Below are positions 30,785 to 43,676 of a stretch of 64,000 nt of DNA, piece by piece. The DNA lies in contig NZ_CP011412.1 of NCBI RefSeq assembly GCF_001007875.1, positions 3,782,001-3,846,000 of the forward strand, read 5' to 3'. The DNA comes from Sedimenticola thiotaurini (GTDB lineage Bacteria; Pseudomonadota; Gammaproteobacteria; Chromatiales; Chromatiaceae). Within the stretch, counting starts at the first letter, position 1. The number at the start of each line of letters is the position of its first letter. Position numbers and translations under genes: made by a program. A model generated the notes under the pieces. The model had not been told where the DNA came from, did no database searches, and worked only from the letters and a program-made list of their open reading frames with translations.

Positions 30785-30910
30785 GCGTTACATTGCAGTG
30801 TACTTGTAGTTTTTCGGCAGTGATCCTCTCGCAGTTCGTGACAGATTCTTCCGTAAGCGCCTGGCAAGCGTCTGCATGTCAACGATCAATTTTGTATAGA
30901 GGATAGCAAC

Positions 30911-31114
30911 ATGGCTACTGGAACAGTTAAATGGTTTAGCGACGAAAAAGGCTTCGGTTTTATTACCCCGACCGATGGCACCAAGGACGTATTCGTTCAT
31001 CACAGCGCAATTCAGGGCACCGGCTTCAAGTCGCTGGCTGAAGGCCAGAGCGTATCGTTCGACGTTGAGCAGGGTCAGAAAGGCCCCAGCGCGACTAACG
31101 TCGTCGCCCAGTAA
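30911..31114 (+). CDS. CspA-family cold-shock protein
   Basis: 67 residues, the family's standard size. It has [20 protein letters not shown] with RNP1 (KGFGFI) and RNP2 (DVFVHHSAI), the aromatic RNA-binding face of the OB fold. It binds single-stranded RNA/DNA and melts mRNA structure after cold shock or during growth. GAGGATAG precedes the ATG, and a strong intrinsic terminator follows. Confidence 0.98.
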
Positions 31115-31123
31115 AATGGGATA

Positions 31124-31176
31124 GGGATGCCTGGCATCCCCGGAAAAGCCCCGCCATCAGGCGGGGCTTTTTTTTG
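31124..31176 (+). terminator. Terminator of the cold-shock gene
   Basis: AGCCCCGCC, ATCA loop, GGCGGGGCT (31147-31168) followed by eight Ts: a textbook intrinsic terminator. A second small dyad (GGGATGCC T GGCATCCC, 31124-31140) lies just before it. Confidence 0.92.
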
Positions 31177-38229: not shown

Positions 38230-38413
38230 GAAATGGAATCCCTAAGTTAACAGTATAGGTAGGCCGGTAGATTGGGGTGACTCCCGAAAACTCAATGTGT
38301 TGAGGCGGCTATTCTTGTAGTTATTTCAGGGGGGGCTCCTGTCGTCTCCCGGTCTGAGCCTGATGAAGCTCGTGGGTAATCCCCCCATTTTTAATGACGT
38401 TCAAAAGTAGAGG

Positions 38414-39246
38414 TCATGCAACCTGGGTTAACTTCTGAATCGGGGTTATTCCACCAAGTGCCATATTAGGCCGTTCGTTATTGTAGCTCCAGAGCCATTT
38501 CGTTGCCGTCTCCTGGGCGTGAGCAATGGACTCAAACAGATGCTGATCTAACCACTCATGCCTGACCGTCCGATTGAATCGTTCCACATAGGCATTCTGT
38601 TGTGGCTTGCCTGGCTGAATATACTGGAGCTGGGTACGCTGCTTGTCGGCCCATTCCACCAGTCGACCGCTCAGATATTCTGGACCATTGTCGCACCGGA
38701 TCGCCTTGGGCTTTCCTCGCCATTCGATAATCTGCTCCAGGCTCCGGATTACTCGCAACGTCGGGAGTGACAGATCCACTTCAATACCCAGTCCCTCCCG
38801 GTTGTAGTCATCGATCACATTGAAGGTGCGGAAGCTACGCCCATCTCTCAATTTGTCATGCATGAAGTCCATTGACCACATATCATTGATCTGGCGTGGC
38901 ACGGCCAGTTCATCCGGCCTATCCCGCCTCAAGCGCCGTTTTGGCTTGATTCGCAGGTTGAGTTCCAACACCCGGTAGACCCTGTACACACGCTTGTGAT
39001 TGTAGCCATAGCCCTTCACATTGCGCAGATACAGAAAACAGAGCCCGAAGCCCCAGGTCCGGTGAGTGGTCGTCAATCTCAGCAGCCAGTCCGCTATATG
39101 GGAATTTTCACCCGAAAGCTTGGCCTAGTATCGATAGCAGGTTTCACTGATACCGAACAGGCGGCAGGCCATACGGATCGAAATCTGTCGCTGTTCAACC
39201 GCTTGCCTGGCCATCTCCCTGCGGCGAGATGGCCTTACCACTTTTT
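38414..39246 (-). pseudogene. IS3 transposase orfB, interrupted by an amber codon
   Basis: In the frame reached by -1 slippage from orfA the protein reads VRPSRRREMARQAV through FGISETCYRY and then meets TAG (39125-39127) before [15 protein letters not shown], where related elements have Gln (CAG to TAG). After the stop the rve catalytic domain is complete to 38414: [10 protein letters not shown] and VIDDYN (Asp residues), [10 protein letters not shown] and [15 protein letters not shown] (Glu). Unless suppressed, full OrfAB transposase cannot be made. Confidence 0.9.
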
Positions 39247-39501
39247 TTCAAGCGCTTCCTGGATAATCTCCGCCTTCAGCCGCTCTTCAGCGTACATCTT
39301 CTTCAGGCGGCGGTTCTCTTCTTCCAGTTCTTTCATGCGCTTTATCATGGAGACATCCATGCCCCCGAATTTGGAGCGCCAGTTATAGAAGGTAGCGTCG
39401 CTCATTCCGTGTTTTCGGCAGAGTTCAGCAACTGGTATACCGTTCTCGGCTTCCTTCAGGATGCTGATGATCTGGGACTCACTGTAGCGGGATTTCTTCA
39501 T
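39235..39501 (-). CDS. IS3 transposase orfA
   Basis: 88 residues. It has an N-terminal helix-turn-helix (SESQIISILKEAENGIPVAELCRKHGMSDATFYNWRSKFGG) and a leucine-zipper-like coiled coil (MKELEEENRRLKKMYAEERLKAEIIQEAL), the standard OrfA architecture for DNA binding at IS ends and dimerisation. At its 3' end seven As followed by G (39241-39248) form a slippery site that would shift ribosomes by -1 into orfB. Confidence 0.93.
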   Translation of the reverse strand: MKKSRYSESQIISILKEAENGIPVAELCRKHGMSDATFYNWRSKFGGMDVSMIKRMKELEEENRRLKKMYAEERLKAEIIQEALEKKW

Positions 39502-39573
39502 GTAGATTCTCCTTCAATCTCTATATTGGAAAATTCTACTTATAAACGCCACCATTTTTCGGGGGGATTACCC

Positions 39574-39635
39574 CCGCTCTGCGGCAAATTTGGAGCGCAG
39601 CAGAAAATTTGTGCGACAGCAGCGCCTTGTTATAC
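39574..39635 (-). repeat. Truncated attC site of the Gabija-like cassette
   Basis: On the minus strand the inverse-core box GTATAAC (39629-39635) exactly complements the cassette's own 5' boundary (GTTATAC at 42333-42339), as expected for a cassette and its attC. The following bases can pair imperfectly (CAAATTT with AAATTTG), but the site is cut at about 39574 by the IS3 element, so the terminal GTTRRRY box is missing. Confidence 0.7.
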
Positions 39636-39693
39636 GGGACGTATGTAATGGCCTTATCTATTCATTGTCGATTAAAATATAGCGATCAACAAA

Positions 39694-40728
39694 TTATATC
39701 CTGTACTTCTTTAATATTTTTTCGCTTACAAAGTACAAGTTACCTTTAGCTCTGGTACAGGCTACATAAAGTTTATTTCTAGTAGTTGGAGGCAACTGAG
39801 CTAGCTGACCAGACTCAAAGGCTTTAAAAGTCGTCGGGTTAAGTACCACGCATACGTCCTGAAAGTGATCAAGACCTTTAGTATTCCCCCAATTTTCATT
39901 GTATCCATAGTAGGAATTGCTTTTCTGATAAAACAGCTTAACTATGGAATCATTAAAATAGATATCTTCAACCTCCTGACTGTTGTCAACGAGGCGAACT
40001 TCTACTTGATCTTTACGATGAGACTGAATTTCAATTGCCAACTCGTTTTCCACAAAAGAACATACGCTTGGGCTACAACGATAACTGTGAGACAGTGATT
40101 CCAAGTCAATAGCAAATCCGGCATTAGATATCTTTTTACAATATTTACCGAAGCAGCTGTGTAGATTTTTTTGAGTATTTCCGTCTCTGCTGGTATCGAA
40201 TGTGTGTTGATAGAAATCCCCTACAAGAAGCATCTCGACATTGACATTAGCTAGGGCGCATATAAAGTTAAAATCGTTAGCTGCAAAATCCTGAACTTCG
40301 TCGATGCATACGAGATCAAAAAATGTCTCTATTCGTTCTATCACTTCAGGAACAACGTCAAATTCGATTAACAATTTTGCTATACGGCTTGCAAAAAGTC
40401 GATCGTTTTTGTCAAAGTAGTGTATCCTAGTATTTTTAGCGCTTCGCTGAGAATTTATTGGTAATGGATAGTTAAAGTTGATCCCTTTTGTTTTCACTTC
40501 GTAGCCGTATAAAGGTCTATAGCAAAATGAGTACAAAAATGTAAAATAAGAATATATTCGAACTCCTGCCGGAATTTTTCCTAACTTTTGAATTATTCTG
40601 TTTCTAAGGTGCTTAGTATTATTGTCTGTATACGTCACAATGAGACATCGACTGTCTTCTTCTACTCTATCAATTATGCTTGATGTTTTACCTGAACCAG
40701 CGACAGCAAAGACTACTCGTTTATCCAT
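39694..40728 (-). CDS. gajB: GajB-like UvrD-type helicase of a Gabija-like defence system
   Basis: 344 residues, much shorter than the ~490 of the described GajB. All main SF1 motifs are visible: Walker A AVAGSGKTS (8-16), motif II LVCIDEVQDF (139-148), motif III LLVGDFYQHTF (167-177), SHSYRCS (213-219), NTKGLDHFQDV (282-292) and VACTRAKGN (322-330). The missing length corresponds to reduced accessory 1B/2B domains. Its ATG lies inside the 3' end of the upstream gene (16-nt overlap), implying coupled translation. In Gabija, GajB senses DNA termini and activates GajA. Assignment rests on pairing and motifs; activity is not demonstrated. Confidence 0.8.
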   Translation of the reverse strand: MDKRVVFAVAGSGKTSSIIDRVEEDSRCLIVTYTDNNTKHLRNRIIQKLGKIPAGVRIYSYFTFLYSFCYRPLYGYEVKTKGINFNYPLPINSQRSAKNTRIHYFDKNDRLFASRIAKLLIEFDVVPEVIERIETFFDLVCIDEVQDFAANDFNFICALANVNVEMLLVGDFYQHTFDTSRDGNTQKNLHSCFGKYCKKISNAGFAIDLESLSHSYRCSPSVCSFVENELAIEIQSHRKDQVEVRLVDNSQEVEDIYFNDSIVKLFYQKSNSYYGYNENWGNTKGLDHFQDVCVVLNPTTFKAFESGQLAQLPPTTRNKLYVACTRAKGNLYFVSEKILKKYRI

Positions 40729-42278
40729 GCAATGGCCTGCTTAATATAGCTTGGTATATCTAAATTTTCTTCATAATGTTCTACAAGTCTAAATGCAGCC
40801 TCAGCCTTATTGTCTAGCATGAACTCAATAGGTTTCTTTTTTATGTTTCCTCCTGAAAACAATTTATCACAAATAGATTTATTGTCTTGATACATGCAGA
40901 CTTCAAATGTGTATCGGGTATTATCTGTATCTGAAAATACCTTGATATGGTCAGCAACATGATCCACATAATTGTCTACACAATTGGATTGATAATCTTC
41001 GTCATTATCCCGAATCACTGCGACTCTTATCCCCAAAGTTTTTGCTAACTCCATGTACCGTTTAAAACTAGTCCCGCCAACAGAAATTACATGAACAGAG
41101 TCTTCATCGAGACTTCTACCCGTTTCTCGTGAATAAAGTGCATCCAACAGCATGTATTCGGCATCGCCTTCTACCAGGATAACCTTGACTGAAAGAACAA
41201 ACTCTAGAATATTATTGTCAGGCGCCTTCATAAAAAACTTGGCTGTTGATTCTGAAAGGTTTTTAAGCATCAGAGGGCTATCACTAGAGCTATTGAGTAG
41301 TATCGAATAACGCAAATCTAAGCGTGTGCTGATTAGGCTATTGTGTGTAGCAATAATGATTTGATTTTTGTGAGAGCCCGATATTTTTGAGATCAGCCTC
41401 TTCATGTTCGAATGACTTAAATGATTTTCAGGTTCTTCTAACAACAGGGTGTCTATAGATTTCTTGTCTGCATTTCTACTTAACGCGAACTCGGTTTTTA
41501 TGAAGCATTGCTGCCCCTTTCCTCTTTCATCTATCGGAATTTGATCTTGAATAAGAGTTATATCAGTCTCTAAATTATACTTTGACCCTGAGCGAACTGA
41601 AAAGTCATAGTCCCCTAGCCTATCGTTAACATCTTTCAAATTGTTTTCTTTAAACTGAGCCTTATGATGGCGGTATTCGTTTTTTAGCCTAACTCGAGTT
41701 GCATGATCAACAGTTGAATCATACACAGACTTTGTATATTCCCTGTTTGCATATTCGCTATTGATTTGTGAGCTATCAATAGTTAAACACTTTAGGAAAC
41801 GGCGATATCCAGAATAGGCCTCTCCATTGAATGTCACAAACTTGACCACATAATATTCAAACGGAAAATTTTCGTTTCCTTCAGCAAGGACCTGATTTAT
41901 CTCGGCAGCGAGATCTTCACTCGGATGGCAAATCATGTGCAATCCGCTTAAGCTAGCATTATCTGAATTGTGTTTTCCCACGAGATCTGGATTGCCATCA
42001 TTATTTAAATAAATTTCTACGTGTATTTCTGGAAGCTTCTCAAAAGACTTGTCGGTAGTAAAAAATTCAGCGATAGCATCTTTATTTAGGATTGACTCAA
42101 TACCAATAGTCTCAACCTTATTTCGACTGCCACTCGCCACTAGCTCTATCGCTTGAAGAATCGAGCTTTTTCCTGACTCATTATCACCAATTATCGTATT
42201 AGTCTCAGAGCTAAACTCAACCTCAAATTGTCTAAATCTTTTAAAGTTGAAAAGCTTGAGCTTTTTAATATATTGCAT
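40713..42278 (-). CDS. gajA: GajA-like OLD-family ATPase/TOPRIM nuclease
   Basis: 521 residues. The N-terminal ABC/SMC-type ATPase has Walker A GDNESGKSS (31-39), a central insertion, Walker B LLLEEPENHL (278-287) and the switch IIATHNSLIST. The C-terminal TOPRIM domain has the catalytic Glu in VILVEGDAEY (366-375), VGGTSFKRYME and the Asp pair in VIRDNDED (422-429). An OLD protein followed by an overlapping UvrD-like helicase is the class 2 OLD / Gabija arrangement. The usual GajA length is ~580, so this one is somewhat compact. In Gabija it nicks DNA when nucleotides are depleted during phage replication. It is the first gene of the cassette; PARIS and retron OLD systems are less likely because of the helicase partner. 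Confidence 0.85.
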   Translation of the reverse strand: MQYIKKLKLFNFKRFRQFEVEFSSETNTIIGDNESGKSSILQAIELVASGSRNKVETIGIESILNKDAIAEFFTTDKSFEKLPEIHVEIYLNNDGNPDLVGKHNSDNASLSGLHMICHPSEDLAAEINQVLAEGNENFPFEYYVVKFVTFNGEAYSGYRRFLKCLTIDSSQINSEYANREYTKSVYDSTVDHATRVRLKNEYRHHKAQFKENNLKDVNDRLGDYDFSVRSGSKYNLETDITLIQDQIPIDERGKGQQCFIKTEFALSRNADKKSIDTLLLEEPENHLSHSNMKRLISKISGSHKNQIIIATHNSLISTRLDLRYSILLNSSSDSPLMLKNLSESTAKFFMKAPDNNILEFVLSVKVILVEGDAEYMLLDALYSRETGRSLDEDSVHVISVGGTSFKRYMELAKTLGIRVAVIRDNDEDYQSNCVDNYVDHVADHIKVFSDTDNTRYTFEVCMYQDNKSICDKLFSGGNIKKKPIEFMLDNKAEAAFRLVEHYEENLDIPSYIKQAIAWINE

Positions 42279-42332
42279 TTCTCACTTCCTCATCAGTCAT
42301 CAAGGCAATACACGCACATTTTTCGGTTGTCC

Positions 42333-42380
42333 GTATAACGCCGCAATCAGCGGCTTGTCCGCTGGATTGCGGCGTTAGAG
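42333..42380 (-). repeat. attC site of the 314-residue-protein cassette
   Basis: Minus strand: CTCTAAC (R'', 42374-42380), GCCGCAATCCAGCGG, 5-nt loop, CCGCTGATTGCGGC, GTTATAC (R', 42333-42339). The arms pair perfectly except for one extra C in the 5' arm, the kind of extrahelical base that orients attC recombination. R'' is the exact complement of the cassette's own 5' boundary GTTAGAG at 43304-43310. Confidence 0.85.
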
Positions 42381-43309
42381 CACTCTCCAAACTTTGATAT
42401 TATATCTACCAAGTACGCTAGGTCATGAGCCGCTTGCCAGTCGATCATGGATTTTCTACGTTTAGAGAATTCAATTGCAAACTTCCCTAACTCTAGAGCT
42501 GCAACACTTGATATTCCGACCATAGGTCCGCCAAAAAATGCTGCGCCAATACCTGCTGCTGCTACAGACTGTATATTTTTTGAATCAAGGATTATGGATA
42601 GTGACGAAACGATAGTGTCAAATCCGTGTTTCTTTCTGGCGATGTTATAATCCTCTAAACCCTTTGATATATCGTCCTCAATGTAACTGGCAGACTTGTT
42701 CGAGTAATTGCTGGAGAGAAAAACTCTAAGTCTTTGCAGCTTTTTCCTGGAATCGATGTCATTTCGTAGTTCGACAATTTGTTCCCAAGAGGCTTGTCCA
42801 ACATCAATTAGCTCCAAATTTGTCAAGCTAAGAATAGCTTCAAATGGACCGGTTTCATTGTTGCCCACTTCTGTAGGAAGAAGAATGTCACTAGATTTCA
42901 ACCCTAACGATCGCGCATATTCTTGGAAATGTGTCCTAATCGGCCCCAGCGTTTGGTGATAGCGATTTTCGAGGTACGCGGTAGAAAGATCATCGTAGTT
43001 TTCATCTTTCGAACTCTCAGATGATGGACTCCAATAATCTGAAGTTTTCTTGCGAAATACATCCCACTGGTCAATCACTTGACCAATAGCGTTGTATCTC
43101 TGTTTCTCTGAATAGTTGATTGCACTGTCATCAAAGACAATATCTACCATTGCCCTTGAAGGGATCTTCTCAGGAAACTCAAACACTATATCTGTTCCGG
43201 TTCCCTGCATACTGCGAAATGAAACTGGGAGTATTTTGTCAAAGTAAAGAGCAGCCTGCTTTACGTCCTTAAAACATACAACAGATGTCATTCTAGCTCC
43301 TTGCTCTAA
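42339..43309 (-). mobile_element. Integron-type gene cassette with one ORF
   Basis: 971 bp, from TTAGAGC at 43309 to the G of GTTATAC at 42339. It has typical cassette economy: the ORF starts 18 nt after the boundary behind AAGGAG and stops inside the attC. AT-rich compared with the core genes on both sides. Confidence 0.82.
42347..43291 (-). CDS. Cassette-encoded protein of unknown function, 314 residues
   Basis: Not recognised. The first ~90 residues are mixed alpha/beta; a Ser/Glu/Asp-rich stretch follows (SPSSESSKDENYDD); the middle is helical with charged segments. A hydrophobic, glycine-rich segment near residues 245-275 (VAAAGIGAAFFGGPMVGISSVAAL) could be a membrane hairpin. After it come KFAIEFSKRRKS and a final helix. 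The last ten residues (SNAAIQRTSR) are encoded by the attC and probably carry no function. The AAGGAG ribosome-binding site is strong. Its place upstream of a Gabija-like cassette makes a defence role possible, but cassettes are independent units and nothing in the sequence proves it. Confidence 0.85.
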   Translation of the reverse strand: MTSVVCFKDVKQAALYFDKILPVSFRSMQGTGTDIVFEFPEKIPSRAMVDIVFDDSAINYSEKQRYNAIGQVIDQWDVFRKKTSDYWSPSSESSKDENYDDLSTAYLENRYHQTLGPIRTHFQEYARSLGLKSSDILLPTEVGNNETGPFEAILSLTNLELIDVGQASWEQIVELRNDIDSRKKLQRLRVFLSSNYSNKSASYIEDDISKGLEDYNIARKKHGFDTIVSSLSIILDSKNIQSVAAAGIGAAFFGGPMVGISSVAALELGKFAIEFSKRRKSMIDWQAAHDLAYLVDIISKFGECSNAAIQRTSR

Positions 43310-43362
43310 CCTTTAAGCATTTATGCCGCGTGACTTTCATGTGGCATAAATGCCTGTTGAAC
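43304..43362 (-). repeat. Upstream attC site without a recognisable cassette gene
   Basis: Minus strand: GTTCAAC (R'', fits RYYYAAC, 43356-43362), stem arm GGCATTTATGCC..., loop, ...GGCATAAATGC, then GTTAGAG (R', 43304-43310). The arms GCATTTATGCC (43317-43327) and GGCATAAATGC (43343-43353) pair perfectly over 11 bp. The cassette it closed should begin with TTGAAC further right, but no such boundary or gene is seen. Confidence 0.75.
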
Positions 43363-43676
43363 TGAGCCGCCCTCGATAGGGTTGCCCAACTCTATTAATA
43401 AGAAATTGTTTTTTACCGGCTGCCCGGCGGTTTGCTATTTGGGGTGACAGCGCAGGAAGGTCTTCGGTGTTGTGCATTCCGGCCCCGCTTCCTGAAGGCT
43501 AGCCGCCCGTCTTTCTAACGATTTTTCTTCATAATGCCTCATTTTCCAGCCCGTGACCACTGCCTGCCCGTCAGACCCGTCGGGTCTGTTGATTGCCTAC
43601 ATCTTCCCCCGTGCAACGGGGCCAGCGTCACCCGCCGCCAGGGCGTCGCGGTGGTAACTCCACCACTATCCGCTTC
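43363..43676. other. 314-nt non-coding stretch between the attC and the HerA-like gene
   Basis: No gene. It contains a CAGACCCG T CGGGTCTG dyad (43572-43588) and a GTTAGAAA box on the minus strand near 43515. Neither gives a clear attI or integrase remnant. This is the right junction of the accessory region with core DNA. Confidence 0.4.

Follow-up and report, generated by a model that had tools for sequence, protein, structure and literature searches.

A compact Gabija gene pair carried as an integron-type gene cassette in Sedimenticola thiotaurini

In the Gabija systems studied, GajA and GajB assemble into a 4:4 complex. Integron gene cassettes carry a signature of their own, as the cassette start (TTRRRY) can pair with R'' of the attC site that belongs to that cassette, a consequence of closure of the cassette circle, and clusters of attC sites without an integrase are known as CALINs. 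A preprint proposed that Gabija acts against phages with end-binding proteins that block RecBCD (PMC12407980), and both sedentary and mobile integrons with defence cassettes have been described (Darracq 2025, Kieffer 2025 and Getz 2025, as presented in PMC12409362). In the literature searched, where these three studies are represented by the account in PMC12409362, we found no report of a Gabija cassette, nor did we find experiments or phage assays on the compact Gabija clade treated below. Here, we analysed a Gabija-like gene pair in a 64,000-nt stretch of the Sedimenticola thiotaurini genome (hereafter the window). Its locus is very probably a CALIN that comprises an IS91-family end, a first cassette (cassette A), the site attC1, a two-gene Gabija cassette presumably captured via an IntI-type integrase, and a truncated attC2, with a GajAB defence function suggested by homology.

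All features of the array lie on the minus strand. The array starts at attC0 (43304-43362), a hairpin resembling attC at the end of an IS91-family element, which has the R'' box GTTCAAC, the junction G^TTAGAG and a fold z of -4.1 against shuffles. It is followed by cassette A (start TTAGAGC at ~43309, end GCTCTAAC), whose gene (42347-43291) encodes a 314-aa protein with a hydrophobic segment and without a match in Pfam, PADLOC or NCBIfam or a plasmid relative. The segment is rich in glycine and alanine, and by position this is a candidate defence gene. The left border of the Gabija cassette is formed by attC1 (42333-42380; R'' CTCTAAC at 42374-42380, R' GTTATAC at 42333-42339), an 18-bp imperfect hairpin with an extrahelical base that folds as single-stranded DNA at -22 kcal/mol (z = -9.0 against shuffles). 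The cassette itself (39574-42338, ~2.77 kb) starts with TTATAC and ends in attC2 (39574-39635), the sole copy of this site in the genome, which retains the R'' box GTATAAC and most of the arms and lacks the R' end at the boundary of an IS3-family element. This element (38372-39573; orfA 39235-39501, orfB 38414-39076), which truncates attC2, has three further genome copies at 95-97%. The region at 39-43 kb is a low-GC island (36-46% versus ~60% around it), which hints at a foreign origin. No integron integrase is encoded within the window, and the sole IntI above the cut-off in the genome (2,526,309-2,527,235) is intact, lies ~1.3 Mb away and has its own array; with attC0 and attC1 and no neighbouring integron integrase, the locus corresponds to a CALIN. 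An Rfam scan of the window returned a single match, to the cspA thermoregulator element at 30787-31174 on the plus strand.

Both gajA and gajB are under purifying selection relative to a closely similar copy in Halomonas rhizosphaerae, with dN/dS values of 0.13 and 0.35, respectively. By homology, the two proteins would assemble into one complex, in which GajA would act as an ATPase-gated Toprim nuclease cutting invading phage DNA, and GajB, an SF1 ATPase, may sense, engage or process DNA ends, or engage single strands, and thereby license the GajA nuclease. Because promoter-like sites occur in the array at chance level, expression of gajAB is uncertain. An alternative explanation is that the pair forms a real cassette that is a silent passenger, intact in sequence and unexpressed at its present position. 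Such a state would fit the chance-level promoter scan, an array that starts at an IS remnant with neither an integrase nor a known Pc promoter upstream, and the presumed silence of distal cassettes (PMC12409362). However, both reading frames are intact, dN/dS is below 1 (though selection elsewhere may account for this), and internal promoters are compatible with a chance-level scan. Silent carriage is thus possible, if somewhat doubtful, and a defensive role remains our preferred reading.

The gajA-like gene (40713-42278) encodes a 521-aa OLD-family ABC ATPase with a Toprim nuclease domain (Walker A GDNESGKS; EEPENHLS; Toprim E370 and D424/D426; Pfam PF13175 and PF20469, OLD-type ABC ATPase and OLD-like Toprim), and the gajB-like gene (39694-40728) a 344-aa UvrD/SF1A helicase (Pfam PF00580, UvrD-like helicase). 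The genes overlap by 16 nt (40713-40728), which suggests translational coupling. A preliminary description of this DNA had read an OLD ATPase/Toprim gene before a UvrD-like helicase gene, with this overlap, as the Gabija order, and the reading frames and Pfam matches agree with it. The profile comparison proposed there as a check was run with PADLOC, and both proteins were matched over their full length: the best model was GajA PDLC00102 (532 positions) for the former, with 361.9 bits over residues 3-518 of 521, and GajB PDLC00148 (a compact model of 369 positions) for the latter, with 181.9 bits over residues 1-336 of 344. AlphaFold models built from 31 relatives (mean pLDDT 87.4 for GajA and 93.3 for GajB) had as their top PDB folds 8sm3_A (GajA, E = 3.7e-17) and 8tk1_F (Gabija complex, E = 6.5e-11). 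The full-length PADLOC matches and the predicted folds together support the Gabija identity of the pair.

The superpositions on the Gabija structures are loose (TM 0.4-0.5), as would be expected at 12-17% identity between flexible proteins of several domains. The GajA profile gave no significant sequence match to the structure of B. cereus GajA (BcGajA) or to the Gabija structures, so residues were matched by motifs and fold, and the kinship to BcGajA rests on the PADLOC profiles and the fold. The Toprim residues of BcGajA are E379, G409, D432 and D434 (PMC10781630), with E370, G401/G402, D424 and D426 as their counterparts by motif; all 31 sequences compared share E370, G402, D424 and D426. 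A further GajA relative with 50% identity (L050:1435-2700) has a frame that stops near residue 420 and is probably a decayed copy. The Toprim domain of class 2 OLD proteins typically bears a ~50-aa helical insert (PMC10568477), a feature examined here by loose superposition, and the GajA-like protein is class 1-sized (521 aa versus 528 aa for class 1 OLD). This size, together with some profile similarity to Old, AriA and PtuA, could be taken to indicate another OLD system (class 1 OLD, PARIS AriA, a retron or Septu) or a DNA repair function. Yet the GajA model scored 362 bits against 84 for class 1 Old and 80 for AriA, the gajB partner is constant in 81 loci, and GajA ranked first in the PDB fold search. 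Assignment to an unrelated OLD system, which would have spoken against the preliminary description, was not seen, and we consider such an identity very unlikely.

The helicase motifs (Walker A AGSGKT; DEVQD; YVACTRA) are all conserved among relatives, as the preliminary description had stated for the core motifs, while its view that accessory domains had been lost applies to one of them. The GajB profile alignment to B. cereus GajB ends at residue 298 of the latter, shortly ahead of where the Cacc/2B subdomain begins (residues 314-416; PMC10681800), and the structural model has four helices at the 1B position and nothing sizeable at the 2B position. From the profile alignment and the secondary structure we infer that 2B is missing, whereas a shortened 1B remains. 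The four-subdomain organisation (1A, 1B, 2A, 2B) of the solved B. cereus protein was thus not found, as 2B is absent from the model. Subdomain 2B is seen in the solved protein and forms no part of the PADLOC definition of Gabija, and its loss could alter the mode of action of GajB.

Both proteins are shorter than the described B. cereus GajA and GajB, as had been remarked, and their sizes are nonetheless those usual within the clade to which they belong. A scan across genomes found 80 relatives, distributed over Pseudomonadota, Bacteroidota, Campylobacterota, Acidobacteriota and a single Spirochaetota bin. Across 81 loci, GajA ranges from 517 to 528 aa, with a median of 521, and the median GajB length is 343 aa; the genes overlap by 16 nt in 76 loci and by 19 nt in the other five, all from Bacteroidota. 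The plasmid collection held 2,338 matching records, mainly from Klebsiella and Escherichia, 1,665 of which cover at least 80% of the protein. Examples from E. coli and Klebsiella plasmids encode proteins of 520/340 aa with a 16-nt overlap, and the E. coli plasmid pair of pRHB41-C14_2 is 49% (GajA) and 43% (GajB) identical to that of the window. The plasmid copies examined adjoin VapBC genes; those tested showed no cassette borders (L079 and L080 are absent from the closure matches given below), and a megablast search of the Gabija cassette DNA against plasmids gave no match. The 521/344-aa form is thus the standard, fixed architecture of a widespread clade of class 2 OLD (Gabija) systems, inside and outside integrons, which PADLOC already models, and the notion of an unusually reduced or 'minimal' Gabija is not supported. 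Shrinkage of Gabija through life in an integron was likewise ruled out, since the compact lengths are identical outside cassettes.

That the pair occupies one cassette, as initially proposed, is borne out by attC hairpins at either end (truncated at the downstream end), by core-site closure and by the borders of the Halomonas copy. The Gabija cassette starts with GTTATAC, complementary to the downstream R'' box GTATAAC, and cassette A shows the same relation between its start GTTAGAGC and R'' GCTCTAAC. In a test for such closure over 7 bases, 11 of 76 loci matched, compared with 43 of 5,590 mismatched upstream/downstream pairs (0.77%), a strong contrast that falls short of an exact probability, as related loci are partly non-independent. 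The best single evidence comes from H. rhizosphaerae (L081), whose DNA is 96.0% identical over window positions 39572-42339, with nothing beyond on either side: the limits of homology coincide with the recombination point of attC1 and the IS boundary within attC2, and the flanks are unrelated. In this genome attC2 is intact (GTATAACAAGGCGCTGCTGTCGGACAAATTTTCCGCTGCGCTCCAAATCTGCCGCAGAGCGCGGCGTTAACT; ending in ...GCGGCGTTAACT), and its arms, aligned by eye, pair GCGCT-(G)-CTG-(T)-CGG with CCGCAGAGCGC, leaving the two extrahelical bases typical of attC, while the minimum-energy program favours a different fold (z = -1.1). A Gabija system of a conventional chromosomal defence island, flanked by hairpins that arose by chance, would suit the lack of an integrase in the window, the mere two complete attC-like sites at the locus and the position of most clade homologues outside cassettes, but is most improbable given closure of both cassettes and its excess over mismatched pairs, the fold z values of attC1 and attC0 against shuffles, and the exact end of the Halomonas homology at the recombination points.

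With the cassette reading thus favoured, the pair would have been captured as one circular cassette by attC recombination, presumably by an IntI-type integrase, and the cassette may then have spread between marine and halophilic Gammaproteobacteria. Since the same cassette, 96% identical, sits in a Halomonas genome with other neighbours, the sequence comparison supports past movement of the Gabija pair between bacteria by integrons. The present copy is a different matter: because the R' box of attC2 was lost to the IS3 insertion, the cassette should no longer be excisable alone, and the pair has probably lost its mobility as a unit. The mobility in the 'mobile phage-defence unit' of the preliminary description is therefore supported for the past and improbable for the present, when the R' box is gone and no integrase is nearby.

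Closed cassettes were found at seven gammaproteobacterial loci, namely the window, H. rhizosphaerae, a Thiotrichaceae bin (L082), Halovibrio variabilis (L083), Shewanella sp. AS1 (L085), Halomonas sp. ML-15 (L094) and Vreelandella zhaodongensis (L096), all of which fall into one 18-row clade of the GajA tree; two further loci (L084 and L089) retain the upstream border only. In Halomonas sp. ML-15, the homologous pair lies within an array of several attC sites, and an ApeA-type HEPN defence cassette (L094:9091-10479) is located two attC sites downstream of Gabija in the same array. In the Thiotrichaceae bin, the cassette next to Gabija (L082:3198-4558) has genes for a TIR (ThsB-like) protein and a caspase-like protein and is apparently a two-gene Thoeris-like cassette, which would mean that Gabija is not the only system carried as a two-gene defence cassette. 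The closure test is also passed by four Bacteroidota loci (L106, L142, L143 and L146), and a comparable site lies downstream at two others (L139 and L148). At L139, L142, L143, L146 and L148, compact Gabija is bordered by GTTGTAAAC / GTTTACAAC boxes together with attC-like hairpins, and no integron integrase was recognised in these genomes. The fold z reached -3.6 for L148 and -3.2 for L143, whereas that of L139 (0.41) is no better than shuffles, and a second, Bacteroidota lineage of Gabija cassettes is for this reason likely but provisional. None of 11 cassette-bearing or cassette-like genomes tested encodes an IntI above the cut-off, and broken fragments occur in Vreelandella alone; this speaks against the reading given here, although several of these genomes are drafts or metagenome bins.

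Of the points left open, the association between IS91-family elements and attC sites is the most interesting. Upstream of cassette A lies a 362-bp IS91-like 3'-end remnant (43307-43668, minus strand) that is 97% identical to two other genome copies. We also considered this block as an attI site, which was ruled out by comparison with these two copies and with relatives in favour of an IS91-like end. The intact genome copy of the element encodes a transposase matching NF033538 with 396.5 bits, and all three genome copies (2523275, 3456110 and window 43304-43668) terminate at a cassette start. The terminal hairpin is kept across the family of this element, between transposases that are ~55% identical, and nearly every copy whose end is complete has a GTTA core after it. 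A matching R'' box was present downstream of 11 of the 19 distinct GTTA-core ends, many with flanks of just 1.5 kb, against an estimated chance expectation of ~1 to 2 (7 bases in 1.4 kb). The other end of the elements, GTTGAACTAAACCGC, adjoins attI-like repeats (L009, beside intI) or attC (L058 and L094). At L009, L012, L058 and L094, IS91-family elements encoding an HUH transposase and a tyrosine recombinase occupy the position between an attI or attC site and the cassette that follows, an arrangement seen in several genera. Moreover, the first bases of the elements, GTTGAAC, pair with the R'' box GTTCAAC of their own terminal hairpin, which fits a gene cassette, although a rolling-circle element that targets the GTTA boxes of attI and attC would look alike. 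We tentatively propose, at close to even chances, that IS91-family elements either are cassettes or target attI and attC, that they seed integrase-less arrays in which defence cassettes such as Gabija gather, and that compact Gabija moved into cassettes on at least two occasions, in the Gammaproteobacteria and in the Bacteroidota. If true, the IS91 link would help explain the origin of such arrays.

The cassette adds a common nuclease-helicase defence system to the genes that integrons shuffle as one unit, and suggests that a two-gene system that must act as a complex can travel as a single cassette. The Halomonas copy, being intact, offers a cassette for direct tests of capture, excision and phage protection. 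When compared with the Gabija system of B. cereus VD045, the window pair shares the gene order, the combination of an OLD ATPase/Toprim protein with a UvrD-like helicase, the Toprim E/G/DxD residues and the helicase motifs; its GajA and GajB, however, are ~57 and ~150 aa shorter, its GajB is without 2B (Cacc), and the distance is too large for a GajA sequence match to the solved structure. From the compact clade modelled by PADLOC (GajA PDLC00102/PDLC00098, GajB PDLC00148/PDLC00140) it differs neither in protein lengths nor in the 16-nt overlap, but the plasmid copies examined lie near VapBC, whereas the window pair lies in an attC-bounded cassette. With CALINs, the locus has in common attC sites without a neighbouring intI, although its array starts at an attC-like IS91-family end. 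Finally, anti-phage genes as cassettes are shared with the known integron defence cassettes, while here a single 2.77-kb cassette holds two coupled genes that belong to a large system already known. As the compact form was already known, the novelty lies in the recurrent carriage of Gabija by cassettes.
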